This document shows positions 14,714 to 20,520 of a DNA stretch of 21,461 nt, piece after piece. The position numbers were made by a program, and so were the translations under genes. Each line of letters opens with the position of its first letter. Position 1 is the first letter of the stretch. The DNA is taken from positions 1 through 21,461 of the IMG/VR virus record IMGVR_UViG_3300025146_000558; one strand, given 5' to 3'. The notes beneath the pieces are model-generated. The model had not been told where the DNA came from. It did no database searches and worked only from the letters and a program-made list of their open reading frames with translations. Source of the stretch: a virus.

Positions 14714-14959
14714 TCAGTGGTCAGTGACTCGTGTCGGCACAGCAGCACCACTGCGCCGCTGGCGATGGGCCTCCGCCACGGCCGCCGGCGCGTCCTCGAA
14801 GCGCGCGACGTGCACGACGTGCTCGCCCGGGTGGCGGTGCCACTCGCAGAATCGCTTGCCCGTATAGGGGCAGGGCGTGTGCCGCGTCTTGCAGCGGCAG
14901 ATCTCGCAGTACTCGACGGTTGCCGGGTCGAGGTAGGCCGGGTGGAGGTACACGCGCAT
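14714..14959 (-). CDS. Small Cys/His-rich probable zinc-binding protein
   Basis: This encodes 81 residues from ATG 14959, overlapping the methyltransferase stop by one base (TGATG). Near the middle, YCEICRCKTRHTPCPYTGK and FCEWHRHPGEH contain C-x2-C plus further Cys and His residues that could bind one or two zinc ions. The N-terminus is short (MRVYLHPAYLDPATVE) and the tail basic and low in structure. It is the last gene before the regulatory gap. No named family is recognised. Confidence 0.6.
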   Translation of the reverse strand: MRVYLHPAYLDPATVEYCEICRCKTRHTPCPYTGKRFCEWHRHPGEHVVHVARFEDAPAAVAEAHRQRRSGAAVPTRVTDH

Positions 14960-15552
14960 CAGTCGCTCGCCCCTATCTCGCGCGCGGCCCGCAGCAGTTC
15001 GGGCAGGCGCCGATCCCAGATGACCACGACGAGCCCGAACGGCGGCGACTTGCTCGTGCGGTTACCGATCTCCTGGCCGTGGTGGAGGAAGGGTCTGCGC
15101 TTGGGCAGGTTGCGGGTCGTCAGGATGCTGCCCGCCCGGTCCCGGTAGGGCTCGATGAGCTGCTGAAAAAACGGCTGCTCGTCGCGGTTGTTCGGCAGGA
15201 GCAGCGCCACGGTCGCTGCCCGCTCGTCCCAGGCCTTCTCGACCCAGGGCCGTAGACGGCTGAAGGGGGGATTCAGGTAGACGACGCGCTCGTCCCACGG
15301 GTAGGCGAGGCCGTCGCCCGCCCAGATCTTGCGCGGCTCTCCCTTTGCCTGCCGCTCGAACGTGCCCTCGAGCGTGCAGTAGCGGTCGCACTTGGCGTTG
15401 TGGTGGTTCGCCGCGGCGTCGAGCGTGAAGTGGAACTCCGCGTCGAGCGGCACGTAGACGCACGGAGGAGTTTCGCGGTCGTCGATGGTGTCGTCGACGC
15501 CCCGCTTTTTGATCTGGTGCTCGTGGTTCTGCGGCTTGAAACCCGGGAACAT
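14959..15552 (-). CDS. Phage DNA N6-adenine methyltransferase, Dam (PF05869) type
   Basis: This encodes 197 residues from ATG 15552, overlapping the previous stop as TGATG. The family pattern is clear: ETPPCVYVPLDAEFHFTLDA at 27-46 with AANHHNAKCDRYC following, then GLAYPWDERVVYLNPPFSR at 81-99, where NPPF (94-97) is the catalytic motif. PWVEKAW and LLLPNNRDEQPFFQQL complete the fold. It methylates adenine using S-adenosylmethionine, protecting phage DNA or marking it for regulation or packaging. No restriction endonuclease is adjacent, so it is probably an orphan methylase. The target sequence cannot be read from the protein. Confidence 0.88.
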   Translation of the reverse strand: MFPGFKPQNHEHQIKKRGVDDTIDDRETPPCVYVPLDAEFHFTLDAAANHHNAKCDRYCTLEGTFERQAKGEPRKIWAGDGLAYPWDERVVYLNPPFSRLRPWVEKAWDERAATVALLLPNNRDEQPFFQQLIEPYRDRAGSILTTRNLPKRRPFLHHGQEIGNRTSKSPPFGLVVVIWDRRLPELLRAAREIGASD

Positions 15553-15789: not shown

Positions 15790-15927
15790 TCAGGTTCTCC
15801 AGCGGTTGCAGCTCGCGGCGCGGCGCACGAGCCAGTAGTAGAGGGGCGATTCGGCGATGCCGAGCTGCTCGCAGCCGGCCATCAACCAGAGCCAGAAGCG
15901 CAGCCGTCGACTGCGCGCGTCCGTCAT
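15790..15927 (-). CDS. 45-residue protein, unknown
   Basis: The frame begins at ATG 15927, overlapping the stop of the Fis-type gene as ATGA, and ends at 15790. It is short and basic, with a Trp/Leu-rich stretch (RLRFWLWLMAGCEQLGIAE) that is borderline for a membrane helix but interrupted by charged residues. The coupled start and immediate downstream gene support it. Function is unknown. Confidence 0.45.
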   Translation of the reverse strand: MTDARSRRLRFWLWLMAGCEQLGIAESPLYYWLVRRAASCNRWRT

Positions 15928-16385
15928 GGTCCACACCTCGCGAGCGGCCGCGGCTGCTTGAGCGCCTTCTCGATGGTGAAGCGGTGGGCGCCGAGCTCTT
16001 GGGCGAGGCGGCGCGTGATCTGGTACTCGCTCTTGCCGTCCGCGCGCATCTGCGCCACCACCGCCCACGGGATGCGCGCGGCCAGGTTCATTGCGGGCGG
16101 CGCCTCTGCCGGAGCCTGCGCCTCGCTCGCCGTCTCGGGCTGTTTCATCGCGGGACCCCGCGCACGCGCCGAAGCGCTCATGCGCCGGAGCATCTCGACC
16201 AGCGTGGTGCGGTTCAGACCCAGCAGCTTCGCCGCCTGGGCGCGGTTGCCGAGCGTGCGCGCCATGGCCTGGTCGACCATCCACTGCTGGTAGCGGGCGA
16301 GCTCGGCGATGAGGTCGAGCCCGTCCTCGGGCAGCACCGAGGGCACTGCCGGCGTCGTCGCCAGCGTCGCTGTCAGGGCGCTCAC
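15924..16385 (-). CDS. Fis-type helix-turn-helix protein
   Basis: This encodes 153 residues if started at GTG 16385, which overlaps the preceding stop as GTGA. Residues about 33-70 match the Fis/NtrC C-terminal helix-turn-helix: QQWMVDQAMARTLGNRAQAA then KLLGLNRTTLVEMLRRM, with the GNR-x-AA-x-LG core. A second possible helix-turn-helix lies in the C-terminal third (DGKSEYQITRRLAQELGAHR). Between them is an Ala/Pro/Glu-rich linker. It should be a DNA-binding regulator. It is in the same frame as the sigma factor upstream, with no stop codon between them, so it may also be made as the C-terminal part of a sigma fusion. Confidence 0.6.
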   Translation of the reverse strand: MSALTATLATTPAVPSVLPEDGLDLIAELARYQQWMVDQAMARTLGNRAQAAKLLGLNRTTLVEMLRRMSASARARGPAMKQPETASEAQAPAEAPPAMNLAARIPWAVVAQMRADGKSEYQITRRLAQELGAHRFTIEKALKQPRPLARCGP

Positions 16386-17390
16386 GGCGAGGCCTCCCGC
16401 GTCTCCGGGCCCGCTCCGTCCGCGATCAGGGTCCGGAGCGGGATCGGTTCCGGCAGGAGCTCCAGCACTATCTCCGTCCCCAGATCCGTCCCGCGGATCG
16501 GGGCAAACTCGCGCGCGTGCTTGTCCGCCCAGCTCTGCGCCTCCTGTTCCTCGCGGCACTGGTCGATGAGCTGCCGCAACGGGCGGTCCGCCCATCCAAC
16601 GCACTGGTACTCCGCAGGGGAAAGGGCCCGGACGTGGAGGCGCGCCCTCAGGGCTTCCAGCTCTTCGATCAACTGCTCGATGCTCATGGTTCTCCTTGTG
16701 CTTGCGCTCGATGGCGCCGCGCGCAGCGCGCTGAACTTGCTTGCCGTCGTAGTTGCCGCGCCCGGGAAGCTCGCCCGTTTGCCAGGCGCGCAGCGTGTTG
16801 AGGGCCTGCGCGTGGACCTGCGAGACGCGCGGCTCGGAGACGCCGAGCGCGTCGCCGATGTCCTTGAATTTCTGCCCTCGCCAGTAGTGGCGGCGCAGGA
16901 TCTCCCGGTGCCGGGAGTGGAGCGGGGCCTCTTCGAGATCGATCCGCGCGTCGCTCGACTCCTTTCTGCGGACGCATGCGTCCTCGGGGCTATCGCACTC
17001 GGCCATCAGGTACTCCTCCCAGGAGCGCTTGTCGTCGCGTCCGCCGAGATCGTCGAACCGCACGATGGTCACCGTCCGTGTGCCGGCGTCGTGTCCCCGG
17101 CGGGTGCGCCGCGGCAGCCAGTCCTGCGCGCGCAGCTCGTCCAAGATCTGCCCCCGGATTCGGGTGATGAGGTAGCCTTTGCGCTGCTCGGCCGTGACGT
17201 CGCCGATCGTCTTGCGGAGACCGTCCCAGAGCCCAATGACCGCCGCCTGGTGGATGTCCTCGCGCCGCACGTTTCTCGGCAGGCGCGCCAGGAAACCGTC
17301 GGCGAGCTTTCGGGCGAGCGCGCGCTCCTCCGGCGTGCCGATGCTGGCCATGCTGACGGCGGGCCCGCTGCTCGCGCGCAGGGCGCTCAT
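15924..17390 (-). CDS. Phage FliA/WhiG-type sigma factor; frame continues without a stop into the Fis-type gene
   Basis: The start is ATG 17390, overlapping the previous stop as ATGA. Residues 38-98 are sigma-70 region 2 of the sigma-28 family: REDIHQAAVIGLWDGLRK then RIRGQILDELRAQDWLPR (77-94). Region 4 spans about 155-201, with FKDIGDALGVSEPRVSQVHA as its helix-turn-helix. Region 3 appears shortened. It should direct RNA polymerase to phage-specific promoters. After about residue 234 the codons lose third-position G/C bias and run through the 101-residue gene in another frame, then join the Fis-type frame, ending at 15924 (488 codons). A read-through fusion, a long overlap and a sequencing frameshift near 16690 are all possible. 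The sigma domain is secure; its C-terminal limit is not. Confidence 0.75.
   Translation of the reverse strand: MSALRASSGPAVSMASIGTPEERALARKLADGFLARLPRNVRREDIHQAAVIGLWDGLRKTIGDVTAEQRKGYLITRIRGQILDELRAQDWLPRRTRRGHDAGTRTVTIVRFDDLGGRDDKRSWEEYLMAECDSPEDACVRRKESSDARIDLEEAPLHSRHREILRRHYWRGQKFKDIGDALGVSEPRVSQVHAQALNTLRAWQTGELPGRGNYDGKQVQRAARGAIERKHKENHEHRAVDRRAGSPEGAPPRPGPFPCGVPVRWMGGPPVAAAHRPVPRGTGGAELGGQARARVCPDPRDGSGDGDSAGAPAGTDPAPDPDRGRSGPGDAGGLAVSALTATLATTPAVPSVLPEDGLDLIAELARYQQWMVDQAMARTLGNRAQAAKLLGLNRTTLVEMLRRMSASARARGPAMKQPETASEAQAPAEAPPAMNLAARIPWAVVAQMRADGKSEYQITRRLAQELGAHRFTIEKALKQPRPLARCGP
16382..16687 (-). CDS. Unknown 101-residue protein overlapping the sigma frame
   Basis: This begins at ATG 16687 with a strong AAGGAG four bases upstream, and its codons show the third-position G/C bias of the phage, unlike the sigma frame across the same bases. 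The N-terminus is a coiled-coil-like helix (SIEQLIEELEALRARLHV); the rest is acidic and mixed. No domain is recognised. Its stop overlaps the Fis-type start as GTGA. It might be an independent protein, perhaps a partner of the sigma factor, or the displaced C-terminus of the sigma gene if a base is missing near 16690. Confidence 0.6.
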   Translation of the reverse strand: MSIEQLIEELEALRARLHVRALSPAEYQCVGWADRPLRQLIDQCREEQEAQSWADKHAREFAPIRGTDLGTEIVLELLPEPIPLRTLIADGAGPETREASP

Positions 17391-18299: not shown

Positions 18300-18700
18300 G
18301 CTGCCCTCCGTGGGAGTTGCGGGCCCATTCGCCCGAGGTGACGCCGGTAGGCCACGCCGAACTTCAGGAGCAGCGGATCGGGTGGACCCGGGTCGTCCTC
18401 TTCGTCCCGCTCATCGGGTGGCCAACGGCGCAGATCCCGGAGGCACTCGAGCACGTCGCCCCGGAGGTTGCCGTGGCTCGGCCAGCAGCCTTCGGTGTCG
18501 TGCCACGCGTTCCGGAGGGCAAAGCACTTCATGCACTCCTCGAACGAGCTCCAGTCGCCATCCCAGCACCCCGCCGCGTAGGCGTAGCGGGCGCCCTTGC
18601 CGATCGGTTCCGCGCACTCCCCGCACTTCCGGTCCTTCCGAGAGACGCGGACGTTGACGTGGTAGACGCTCGGGCCGTCGTAGTCGCTACAGCCGCACAT
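18296..18700 (-). CDS. Zinc-binding protein of unknown function
   Basis: This encodes 134 residues from ATG 18700, overlapping the helicase-loader-like stop by one base (TGATG). Two cysteine pairs, KCGECAEPIGKGARY and ECMKCFALR, about 26 residues apart, fit a treble-clef zinc fold of the kind seen in small phage proteins. MCGCSD at the N-terminus adds two more cysteines. The C-terminus is acidic then basic (RDEEDDPGPPDPLLLKF). Role unknown; the context is replication and regulation. Confidence 0.6.
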   Translation of the reverse strand: MCGCSDYDGPSVYHVNVRVSRKDRKCGECAEPIGKGARYAYAAGCWDGDWSSFEECMKCFALRNAWHDTEGCWPSHGNLRGDVLECLRDLRRWPPDERDEEDDPGPPDPLLLKFGVAYRRHLGRMGPQLPRRAA

Positions 18701-19191
18701 CACGCGATCCTCCGCCGGCCAGCGGCGCCCGAGGGCAACGCAATCCCGCTCGCGTCCGCGTCGCGCTTGCGCGTCGCGAGCGAGTCGTAGAGCTCGATGA
18801 AGCGTGCTCTTCCGCCCGGGTCGTCTTCCGGCGAGTTGCAGAAGTCGAGCCAGGAGCCCCAGAGCCGCAAGGCTTCGCTCACCAGCGGGTCGAGGAACTT
18901 CGGCACGCCGTAGCGGCCGACTCGCCGCACGGCCGCCATGGCATCCTGCCAGGCCTGGCCTCCGTCGCGGGCGGGCCCCAGCTCGAGGTCCGTGGTGCCC
19001 GCGCGGATCTCGGCGATGGTGGGCAGCCACTTGCTGGTGGCGAGCAGGCGCGTCACCGCCTTGCGCACGGTCGCGCAGTCCAGATCCGCGAGCGCGGACT
19101 CGTACACCTGCGACGTGCTCGGCGTGAGGCGCGCGTTGGGGTACGCGGCGATGAGCATCATGACGATTTCTGCGGCTTCCGATGGCTTCAT
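18700..19191 (-). CDS. Replicative helicase loader-like protein
   Basis: This encodes 163 residues from ATG 19191, overlapping the stop of the replication initiator as ATGA. The N-terminal 65 residues (PSEAAEIVMMLIAAYPNARL; ESALADLDCATVRKAVTRLL; SKWLPTIAEIRAG) match the pattern of phage helicase loader/inhibitor proteins of the G40P type, which bring the DnaB-type helicase to the origin. The C-terminal part is helical (WQDAMAAVRRVGRYGVPKFL) and may contact helicase. Position right after the initiator fits the usual initiator-loader order. The helicase itself is not in the window, so the phage may use the host enzyme. Confidence 0.6.
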   Translation of the reverse strand: MKPSEAAEIVMMLIAAYPNARLTPSTSQVYESALADLDCATVRKAVTRLLATSKWLPTIAEIRAGTTDLELGPARDGGQAWQDAMAAVRRVGRYGVPKFLDPLVSEALRLWGSWLDFCNSPEDDPGGRARFIELYDSLATRKRDADASGIALPSGAAGRRRIA

Positions 19192-20060
19192 GGGGCGGGG
19201 GCTTTCGCTTGGGCTTCTTCGGCTTCTCGCGCGCGGAGCATCTCCACGCGTGCGGCTTGCGCGGACAGGCGGTCGTCGGGGGAGGCGCGCGCGAGCCCAG
19301 GGCCGGCGCGGGCATGCTCGGTGCGCTGGTCGACGACCCAGAACGGGAACTGGTCGCGGACCCATTGCTCCCGGTCGAGCACTCCGTCTCGCCCGCCAAT
19401 CGGCTTGTTCTTGGCGCGCTGGACGCGCTCCCTGAAGTACTCGCGCGAGATGTTGTGCATGACCGCCTCGTCCTCGAGCGGAGCCGGCGGGTCCCAGCCC
19501 TTGAGCGTGTGCCAGACGACGGGCGCTCCCTCGGCTGGCTCCGGGCGCACCCTCACGAGCCGTGGCGGGATGCGGGGTGGCGTCGCGACGCGCGACGCGT
19601 CTTCCCCTTCCCTTCCGTTCCCCTTCCCTTCCGTTCCATTCCCTTCCCCTTCCACTGAAGGGGCGTGGGGCACGCGTGGGGCACGCGTGGGGCACGCGTC
19701 GATTGTGGTCGGGTCGGCATCCTCGGGACCTGGAAGTTCGCTAGCAACTTCGCGGTTGTTGACGACCTGGTGGCGCGTGAACGTGCGGACGTAGCCGTAC
19801 TTCTTGCCGCCCGACGCGTAGGGCACGAGAAAGCCACGCGTGGTCAACGCGTCGAGCACGCGTGAAAAGTCTCCGTCCCAGTACGGCAGGATGCCGGCCT
19901 TGAGCGCTCGCGGGCGCCACTCGAAGCGTCCCTCCCGATCGGCGAAGCACCAGATACCGATGAACGCCTGGGCGATCGGCAGCCCCGTCTCCTCGGCGAG
20001 CTCCCAGAGCTCCTCGTCGGTGAAGAGCTCCGGCTTGATGCTGCGGATGCGGGGCCTCAC
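19188..20060 (-). CDS. Phage replication initiator-like protein, carrying candidate origin
   Basis: This encodes 290 residues from GTG 20060, overlapping the previous stop as GTGA. The first 110 residues match a common phage replication protein N-terminus: RPRIRSIKPELFTDEELWEL, GIWCFADREGRFEWRPRALK and VLDALTTRGFLVPYASGGKK, ending FTRHQVVNNREVASELPGP. This part is expected to be a DNA-binding winged helix. Residues about 115-160 are low complexity, Pro/Arg then Gly/Glu-rich, exactly where the DNA carries an 11-bp tandem repeat and a pyrimidine tract. The C-terminal part is helical and would contact a loader or helicase. An origin inside the initiator gene, as in phage lambda O, is likely by analogy. 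Confidence 0.75.
   Translation of the reverse strand: MRPRIRSIKPELFTDEELWELAEETGLPIAQAFIGIWCFADREGRFEWRPRALKAGILPYWDGDFSRVLDALTTRGFLVPYASGGKKYGYVRTFTRHQVVNNREVASELPGPEDADPTTIDACPTRAPRVPHAPSVEGEGNGTEGKGNGREGEDASRVATPPRIPPRLVRVRPEPAEGAPVVWHTLKGWDPPAPLEDEAVMHNISREYFRERVQRAKNKPIGGRDGVLDREQWVRDQFPFWVVDQRTEHARAGPGLARASPDDRLSAQAARVEMLRAREAEEAQAKAPAP
19595..19863. repeat. 11-bp-phased ACGCGT iteron clusters, candidate replication origin
   Basis: ACGCGT begins at 19595, 19672, 19683, 19694, 19814, 19836, 19847 and 19858. The three central copies belong to a perfect tandem repeat of GTGGGGCACGC (19665-19697). The last group is spaced 22, 11 and 11 bp, and 19595 to 19672 is 77 bp, also a multiple of 11. 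A 53-nt tract (19601-19653) is pyrimidine on the plus strand except for three bases and contains CCCTTCCGTTCC twice, 16 bp apart. Because 11 is not a multiple of 3, the repeats are not explained by repeated amino acids. Confidence 0.55.
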
Positions 20061-20446
20061 CCGGCGGTCCCCGATCCGTCGTTCGCTGGCTTGCTCTTGT
20101 TTCGGTGGTACCAGTCGCGCTTGCTCTCGCGCGCCTTGACGACGCCCAGGAGCTCGCGGTGCAGGTCATGGTCGAGGAGCAGCCAGCCCCCTTCGACCTC
20201 CATCAGCTGGCGGCCCCCATGCTGCAGGTGCGCCCCGTCGGGGTCGGCCGCCGAGAGGACGGCGATGGCGTCCTCCGCCTCCGCAACGGTGACGCGCGCC
20301 CGGTGGGCGAGGCTCGGGACGCTCGCGAAGGCGATACCGCTGCGCTTGACCATCGCGCGCAGAGTTACCCAGACGATCCGGACGTGGTGCGGCTTGGACC
20401 ACACCGGCAGATCGGTGATGCTCGAAAACAGCTCGGCGCAGCTCAT
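20057..20446 (-). CDS. Phage replication-associated protein
   Basis: This encodes 129 residues from ATG 20446. An ATG 13 codons earlier (20485) is an alternative with no better ribosome site. The N-terminus (SITDLPVWSKPHHVRIVWVT, then GIAFASVPSLAHRARVTVAE) matches a frequent small phage protein encoded just before replication initiators and thought to have a winged-helix fold. The C-terminus has the typical VEGGWLLLDHDLHREL and a basic end (KARESKRDWYHRNKSKPAND). It is coupled to the initiator gene as GTGA. A role in origin binding or initiation is inferred from neighbours. Confidence 0.65.
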   Translation of the reverse strand: MSCAELFSSITDLPVWSKPHHVRIVWVTLRAMVKRSGIAFASVPSLAHRARVTVAEAEDAIAVLSAADPDGAHLQHGGRQLMEVEGGWLLLDHDLHRELLGVVKARESKRDWYHRNKSKPANDGSGTAG

Positions 20447-20520
20447 GCTGGGGGAAGTCCCTTTCCCTGGTTGACCCGGTCGCATCCTCGCGCCGGGGAA
20501 AAACGAATTTGCAGGTTGGC

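Follow-up and report, generated by a model that had tools for sequence, protein, structure and literature searches.

A putative phage replication origin built of phased ACGCGT sites inside an initiator gene

The closest described parallels to the locus examined here are initiators whose binding sites lie within their own genes. In the RepA_N initiator pSK41 Rep, a winged-helix N-terminal domain binds four Rep boxes located centrally in the rep gene, in sequence coding for the linker, and replication is assigned to the C-terminal domain (PMC5703833). Lambda-type phages place their origin iterons within the initiator gene, and a sequence-only reading of the DNA studied here had drawn on that placement to propose a probable origin with its initiator-binding array. 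The layout of the locus matches that of lambda O, and the proposal is supported, as a putative assignment, by the retention of the array in relatives (90 of 144), by PHROG initiator matches and by a helicase-loader-like gene next door. We put the probability that the array is the phage's replication origin, lying inside the initiator gene and bound by the initiator, at roughly 0.85. By sequence comparison, it would apparently be a distinct and undescribed type of lambda-O-like intragenic origin.

Initiator gene and its ACGCGT sites

The window, which is the whole of a 21,461-base virus record (IMG/VR IMGVR_UViG_3300025146_000558), carries the replication initiator gene at 19188–20060 on the minus strand, with a GTG start and a product of 290 aa. 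In profile searches, this product matched PHROG 16167, 1408 and 12556, all annotated 'replication initiation protein', and the best match (PHROG 16167, E = 1.5e-37) spanned the N-terminal domain (aa 4–122). The same type of search gave zero matches to Pfam or NCBIfam models, with DnaD, DnaT, DUF1376 and Phg_2220_C domains absent, and a PDB sequence search returned no credible match. An AlphaFold2 model built with 68 sequences predicted an N-terminal winged-helix DNA-binding domain (aa 1–110, encoded at 19731–20060 on the minus strand; pLDDT 90–98) with helices at 29–39, 50–57 and 65–74 and strands at 45–47, 78–83 and 86–91, followed by a linker predicted to be disordered (low confidence at approximately 120–190) and a helical C terminus. 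Helix 65–74, the third of the winged helix, is the predicted recognition helix on the basis of fold topology. Foldseek matches to the domain were weak (best E = 0.02) and of a general winged-helix kind only; fold-search hits with Z below 8 were not taken as kinship.

The gene downstream of the initiator (18700–19191, minus strand) overlaps the initiator stop by four bases and encodes a putative G39P-like helicase loader, which matched phrog_2289 (helicase loader, E = 2.3e-5) and, marginally, PF11417 (E = 3e-4; 21.7 bits, under the cut-off of 22). Among ten relatives tested, five encode either DnaB or a P-like helicase loader at this position, and F10, HK639, JBD44, IFTN8 and Mx8, all named phages from the broader family, have DnaC-, P- or DnaB-like genes there. 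Directly upstream of the initiator, a minus-strand gene for a 142-aa protein (20057–20485) has no PHROG or Pfam match. Elsewhere in the window, minus-strand genes encode a Dam-family DNA methyltransferase (14959–15552; PF05869, E = 3.5e-14) and a 488-aa protein (15924–17390) that combines sigma-70 region 4, a region 2 match below the cut-off and a Fis-type HTH, which is unusual for a phage gene.

ACGCGT occurs 19 times in the window, and nine of these sites are inside the initiator gene. Eight of them start at 19595, 19672, 19683, 19694, 19814, 19836, 19847 and 19858, giving successive steps of 77, 11, 11, 120, 22, 11 and 11 bp within 19595–19863. The eight hexamers in 270 bp and the 77-bp gap that had been read from the letters were thus all located; the two runs at 11- and 22-bp steps were also present, although they take in seven of the eight sites and not six as first counted. 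The ninth site (19246–19251) is isolated toward the gene's 3′ end and belongs to neither conserved cluster. Array 1 (19814–19863) comprises the sites at 19814, 19836, 19847 and 19858, spaced by 22, 11 and 11 bp, the last three of which code for S66–R75 in the predicted third helix. Array 2 (19672–19699) comprises the sites at 19672, 19683 and 19694 and is an exact 11-bp tandem repeat in linker codons; TRF reported the 11-bp unit GCGTGGGGCAC at 100% identity in 3.4 copies over 19663–19699, bearing out the perfect tandem run noticed earlier. The single site at 19595–19600 lies 77 bp (7 × 11) from array 2, at the far edge of a purine tract. This tract (19600–19654), which on the plus strand is the pyrimidine tract of the sequence-only reading and has a few interruptions, consists of RGGAA-type pentamers on the coding (minus) strand, is not AT-rich and is a candidate unwinding or single-strand element. 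Both array 2 and the tract code for the linker predicted to be disordered.

As a null model, synonymous codons were shuffled within the gene 20,000 times, preserving the protein and its codon usage. The nine observed ACGCGT sites compare with 1.73 expected, and the five successive gaps of 11 or 22 bp with 0.08 expected; neither value was reached in any of the 20,000 shuffles. The phased sites are therefore neither a product of chance nor imposed by the protein, and the earlier argument that protein repeats do not explain them stands. A companion claim, that exactly three tandem copies keep the reading frame, fell: the linkers of relatives hold one to five copies, and it is the whole linker that keeps frame. 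Cumulative GC skew over the 21-kb fragment, a partial contig, had no marked minimum at the array.

Conservation and recognition of the sites

Relatives of the initiator were collected from viral contigs, bacterial genomes and phage records and reduced to 144 at <85% protein identity. ACGCGT pairs spaced by 11 or 22 bp are present in 90 of the 144, and the array, whose absence from relatives had been named in advance as counting against an origin, is kept at fixed positions. Array 1 sites fall at gene nt 195, 206 and 217, and often 239, in most relatives; array 2 falls at approximately nt 330–470, with a linker run in 83 of the 90 array-bearing genes, and both arrays occur together in 69. In the HQxx[NG]xxE clade (99 genes), 521 ACGCGT sites were counted versus 78 in synonymous shuffles, and 280 gaps of exactly 11 bp versus 2.7 expected. 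The density of ACGCGT in array-bearing genes is 11.0 per kb over the first 520 nt, compared to 0.06 per kb in upstream DNA (400 nt) and 0.13 per kb in downstream DNA, and the GC content of member genes ranges from 37% to 70%. Pooling of linker sites extended the hexamer to the 10-bp palindrome YSACGCGTSR, neighboring copies of which are separated by a single base. At least 79 newly fetched viral loci carry three ACGCGT sites at 11-bp steps, 69 of them in a gene with the initiator's domain.

Array 1, array 2 and the purine tract follow one another in a fixed order; the sequence-only reading had noticed neither that one cluster falls in codons of the DNA-binding domain nor that the tract is a conserved pentamer repeat. 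Across relatives, the tract starts a median of 22 nt past array 2, has a median length of 42 nt (24 nt in synonymous shuffles) and is made of RGGAA pentamers, with 898 lag-5 repeats versus 147 expected. An ACGCGT site within 40 nt of the tract end was found in 12 of 84 relatives, with approximately 0.009 expected per gene.

Array 1 is selected as DNA, since its exact codons are frozen while most neighboring ones vary. It encodes the peptide S-R-V-L-D-A-L-x-T-R in the predicted third helix (aa 65–74), with near-invariant codons for S66 (TCA, 73/73), R67 (CGC, 96%), D70 (GAC, 95%), A71 (GCG, 98%), T74 (ACG, 99%) and R75 (CGT, 96%). Most of these key codons diverge from pooled usage by 1.1–1.9 bits, versus a median of 0.11 bits for most other conserved residues, the codons of which vary freely. 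With an 11-bp step, successive sites fall once in each reading frame, so that a set of three encodes RV, DA and TR, and the linker repeats the same peptides (for example, SRVNDASPTR), with its ACGCGT sites using all three frames (99, 92 and 62).

The presence of the array parallels a motif that closes the domain: all 90 proteins with an array have HQx[IV]N, compared to 4 of the 53 that lack one. In a sister clade with HQx[PCF]HxxE (the HQxPHxxE type), ACGCGT arrays occur in none of 40 genes; 11-bp repeats are in excess there (136 versus 16 expected), with cores that, judged by eye, resemble AGYACNRTRCA and are followed by CTGATTCC repeats. The pairing of HQ motif and core pattern across clades would fit initiator and site changing together; on the tree, the array requires eight changes, and approximately four independent pairs go with the motif and none against it, which is non-significant (p = 0.125). 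In genes of this sister clade (clade H), CTGATTCC repeats with periods of 7, 15 or 21 bp, often downstream of other 11-bp repeats, encode LIPDSLIPD-like peptides at nt ~380–520, and these repeats are probably the equivalent opening element.

The 11-bp ACGCGT array also occurs in the linkers of PHROG 9474-type (L209/L301) and DUF1376 (L220/L305–L307) genes, for which a sequence relationship to the window protein was not detected, and in L188 and L235, which by eye look like the PHROG 9474 type. Among relatives of the PHROG 9474-type and DUF1376 queries, ACGCGT arrays are mostly absent and are thus not a general feature of those families. At least ten phased loci were found outside the initiator's family, in four initiator-like genes, three HTH genes and three chance-like settings. 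Three loci (L215, L225 and L259) are copies of one gene with a weak HTH match and three phased ACGCGT sites at nt 382, where the encoded peptide is RADAC[AP]TRVRRV; the phased sites at L186, L203 and L252 look like chance. For the DUF1376 genes L309, L312 and L316, the strongest repeats in the linker recur every 11 bp with different cores, such as one around AACCCA; only some are significant, and they suggest that the 11-bp grid may extend beyond one family.

Because the array sits in three initiator families without a detected relationship, its recognition allows two readings: either several winged helices would share specificity or a common partner would read ACGCGT. The second, an origin whose sites are recognized by a common partner from host or phage and not by the initiator's own domain, would account for 11-bp ACGCGT arrays in the linkers of all three families. 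Within the window family, however, the array goes with HQx[IV]N, which closes the DNA-binding domain in 90/90 array-bearing initiators, and the sister clade, which occurs in partly the same host groups as the array-bearing clade, uses other cores. We also know of no host factor with an ACGCGT site and regard such a partner as unlikely. Less probable still is that the array, instead of being an origin, is an operator or roadblock that lets the initiator, or a different phage protein, regulate transcription across the gene. Initiators often autoregulate, and the array is inside a transcribed gene; against an operator stand the scarcity of ACGCGT upstream, where the promoter would lie, the fixed pairing with the purine tract, the helicase loaders or helicases downstream and the lambda ori layout. 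That the repeats are a by-product of selection on the protein (the SRVLDAL.TR helix and a repeat-rich linker) or of codon bias toward GC is refuted by the synonymous shuffles and the codon test: array 1 does encode a conserved helix and the linker is of low complexity, but the signal is gone in the shuffles, the codons are frozen across the whole GC range of the family and linker sites are spread over all frames. Methyltransferase or restriction sites of phage or host, or a packaging or recombination site, are scarcely credible: MluI cuts ACGCGT and the window has a Dam-type methyltransferase gene, but these functions fit poorly with the strict 11-bp phasing, the confinement to the initiator gene and nearby phage DNA almost without ACGCGT.

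Proposed mechanism and implications

In the mechanism that we infer for an initiator-bound origin, the winged-helix domain, as a symmetric dimer or as two monomers, would bind YSACGCGTSR palindromes every 11 bp, a recurrence that would leave the bound initiator copies stacked along almost the same side of the DNA helix. Arrays 1 and 2, in domain and linker codons, respectively, may then be joined by looping into one nucleoprotein complex, which would strain the adjacent RGGAA purine tract so that it opens or is kept single-stranded. DnaB would then be delivered at the tract by the initiator's C-terminal portion and the next-door helicase loader.

The chances seem to us evenly balanced that this is a distinct class of origin, in which recognition-helix codons are part of the protein's own binding site, RGGAA repeats open or load even in GC-rich genomes and a grid of 11-bp palindromes is a grammar shared by several initiator families, with the core changing with the domain. 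If so, the same bases would encode both the specificity of a protein and its target. A literature search, to which subscription journals were outside coverage and in which older work was poorly covered, found no description of ACGCGT iterons or of the origin of this initiator family.

As a rule, phased ACGCGT sites plus an RGGAA tract in an initiator gene predict origins for many phages and prophages, with a reach from Pseudomonadota to Acidobacteriota and Planctomycetota hosts, for which no described origin was found. The contrast of HQx[IV]N with ACGCGT and HQxPHxxE with other cores offers a natural protein–DNA co-variation set for the study of initiator specificity. Array 1 is also a strong example of codon choice within a structured domain being set by a regulatory DNA element, and the findings suggest that phage linker peptides such as SRVxDAxxTR, EGKGKEGK and LIPDSLIPD are translated origin DNA and not functional peptides.

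Comparison with known initiation systems

Primosomal proteins of the DnaD, DnaT and DUF1376 types resemble this system in that some relatives of the initiator have DnaD, DnaT or Phg_2220_C C-terminal domains and in that the array is also present in some DUF1376 and PHROG 9474 genes, whereas the window initiator is without their domains. With pSK41 Rep, the window protein shares its general plan: a predicted winged-helix N terminus, sites in the linker codons of its own gene and a putative replication part at the C terminus. Unlike RepA_N genes, however, the window gene has no AT-rich Rep boxes, a RepA_N Pfam domain was found neither in its product nor in 67 relatives, and the fold match is that of any winged helix: the weak matches to 4pt7 ('Structure of initiator'; Foldseek E = 0.02) and 5kbj ('Structure of Rep-DNA complex'; Z = 5.9) are equaled in score by unrelated winged helices.

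Lambda O served as a positive control for the lag test, which recovered its annotated iterons at lag 20 from gene nt 348 (0/300 shuffles); a 20-nt purine run follows them at nt 450. Lambda has four 18-bp iterons at 20–24-bp steps without ACGCGT, whereas the window gene has 10-bp palindromes at 11-bp steps and a further array in codons for the DNA-binding domain, and its tract is of GGAA-type purines where that of lambda is AT-rich. Homology between the two was not detectable by hhalign of the domain alignment (probability 0.3, E = 0.22), and membership in the lambda O family is ruled out by this result, by the other unit and spacing and by the lack of an AT-rich tract. What the two systems have in common is the arrangement: initiator sites in linker codons (lambda nt 349–433, and 362–389 here), a purine-rich stretch after the sites and a helicase-loader gene, putative in the window, next.
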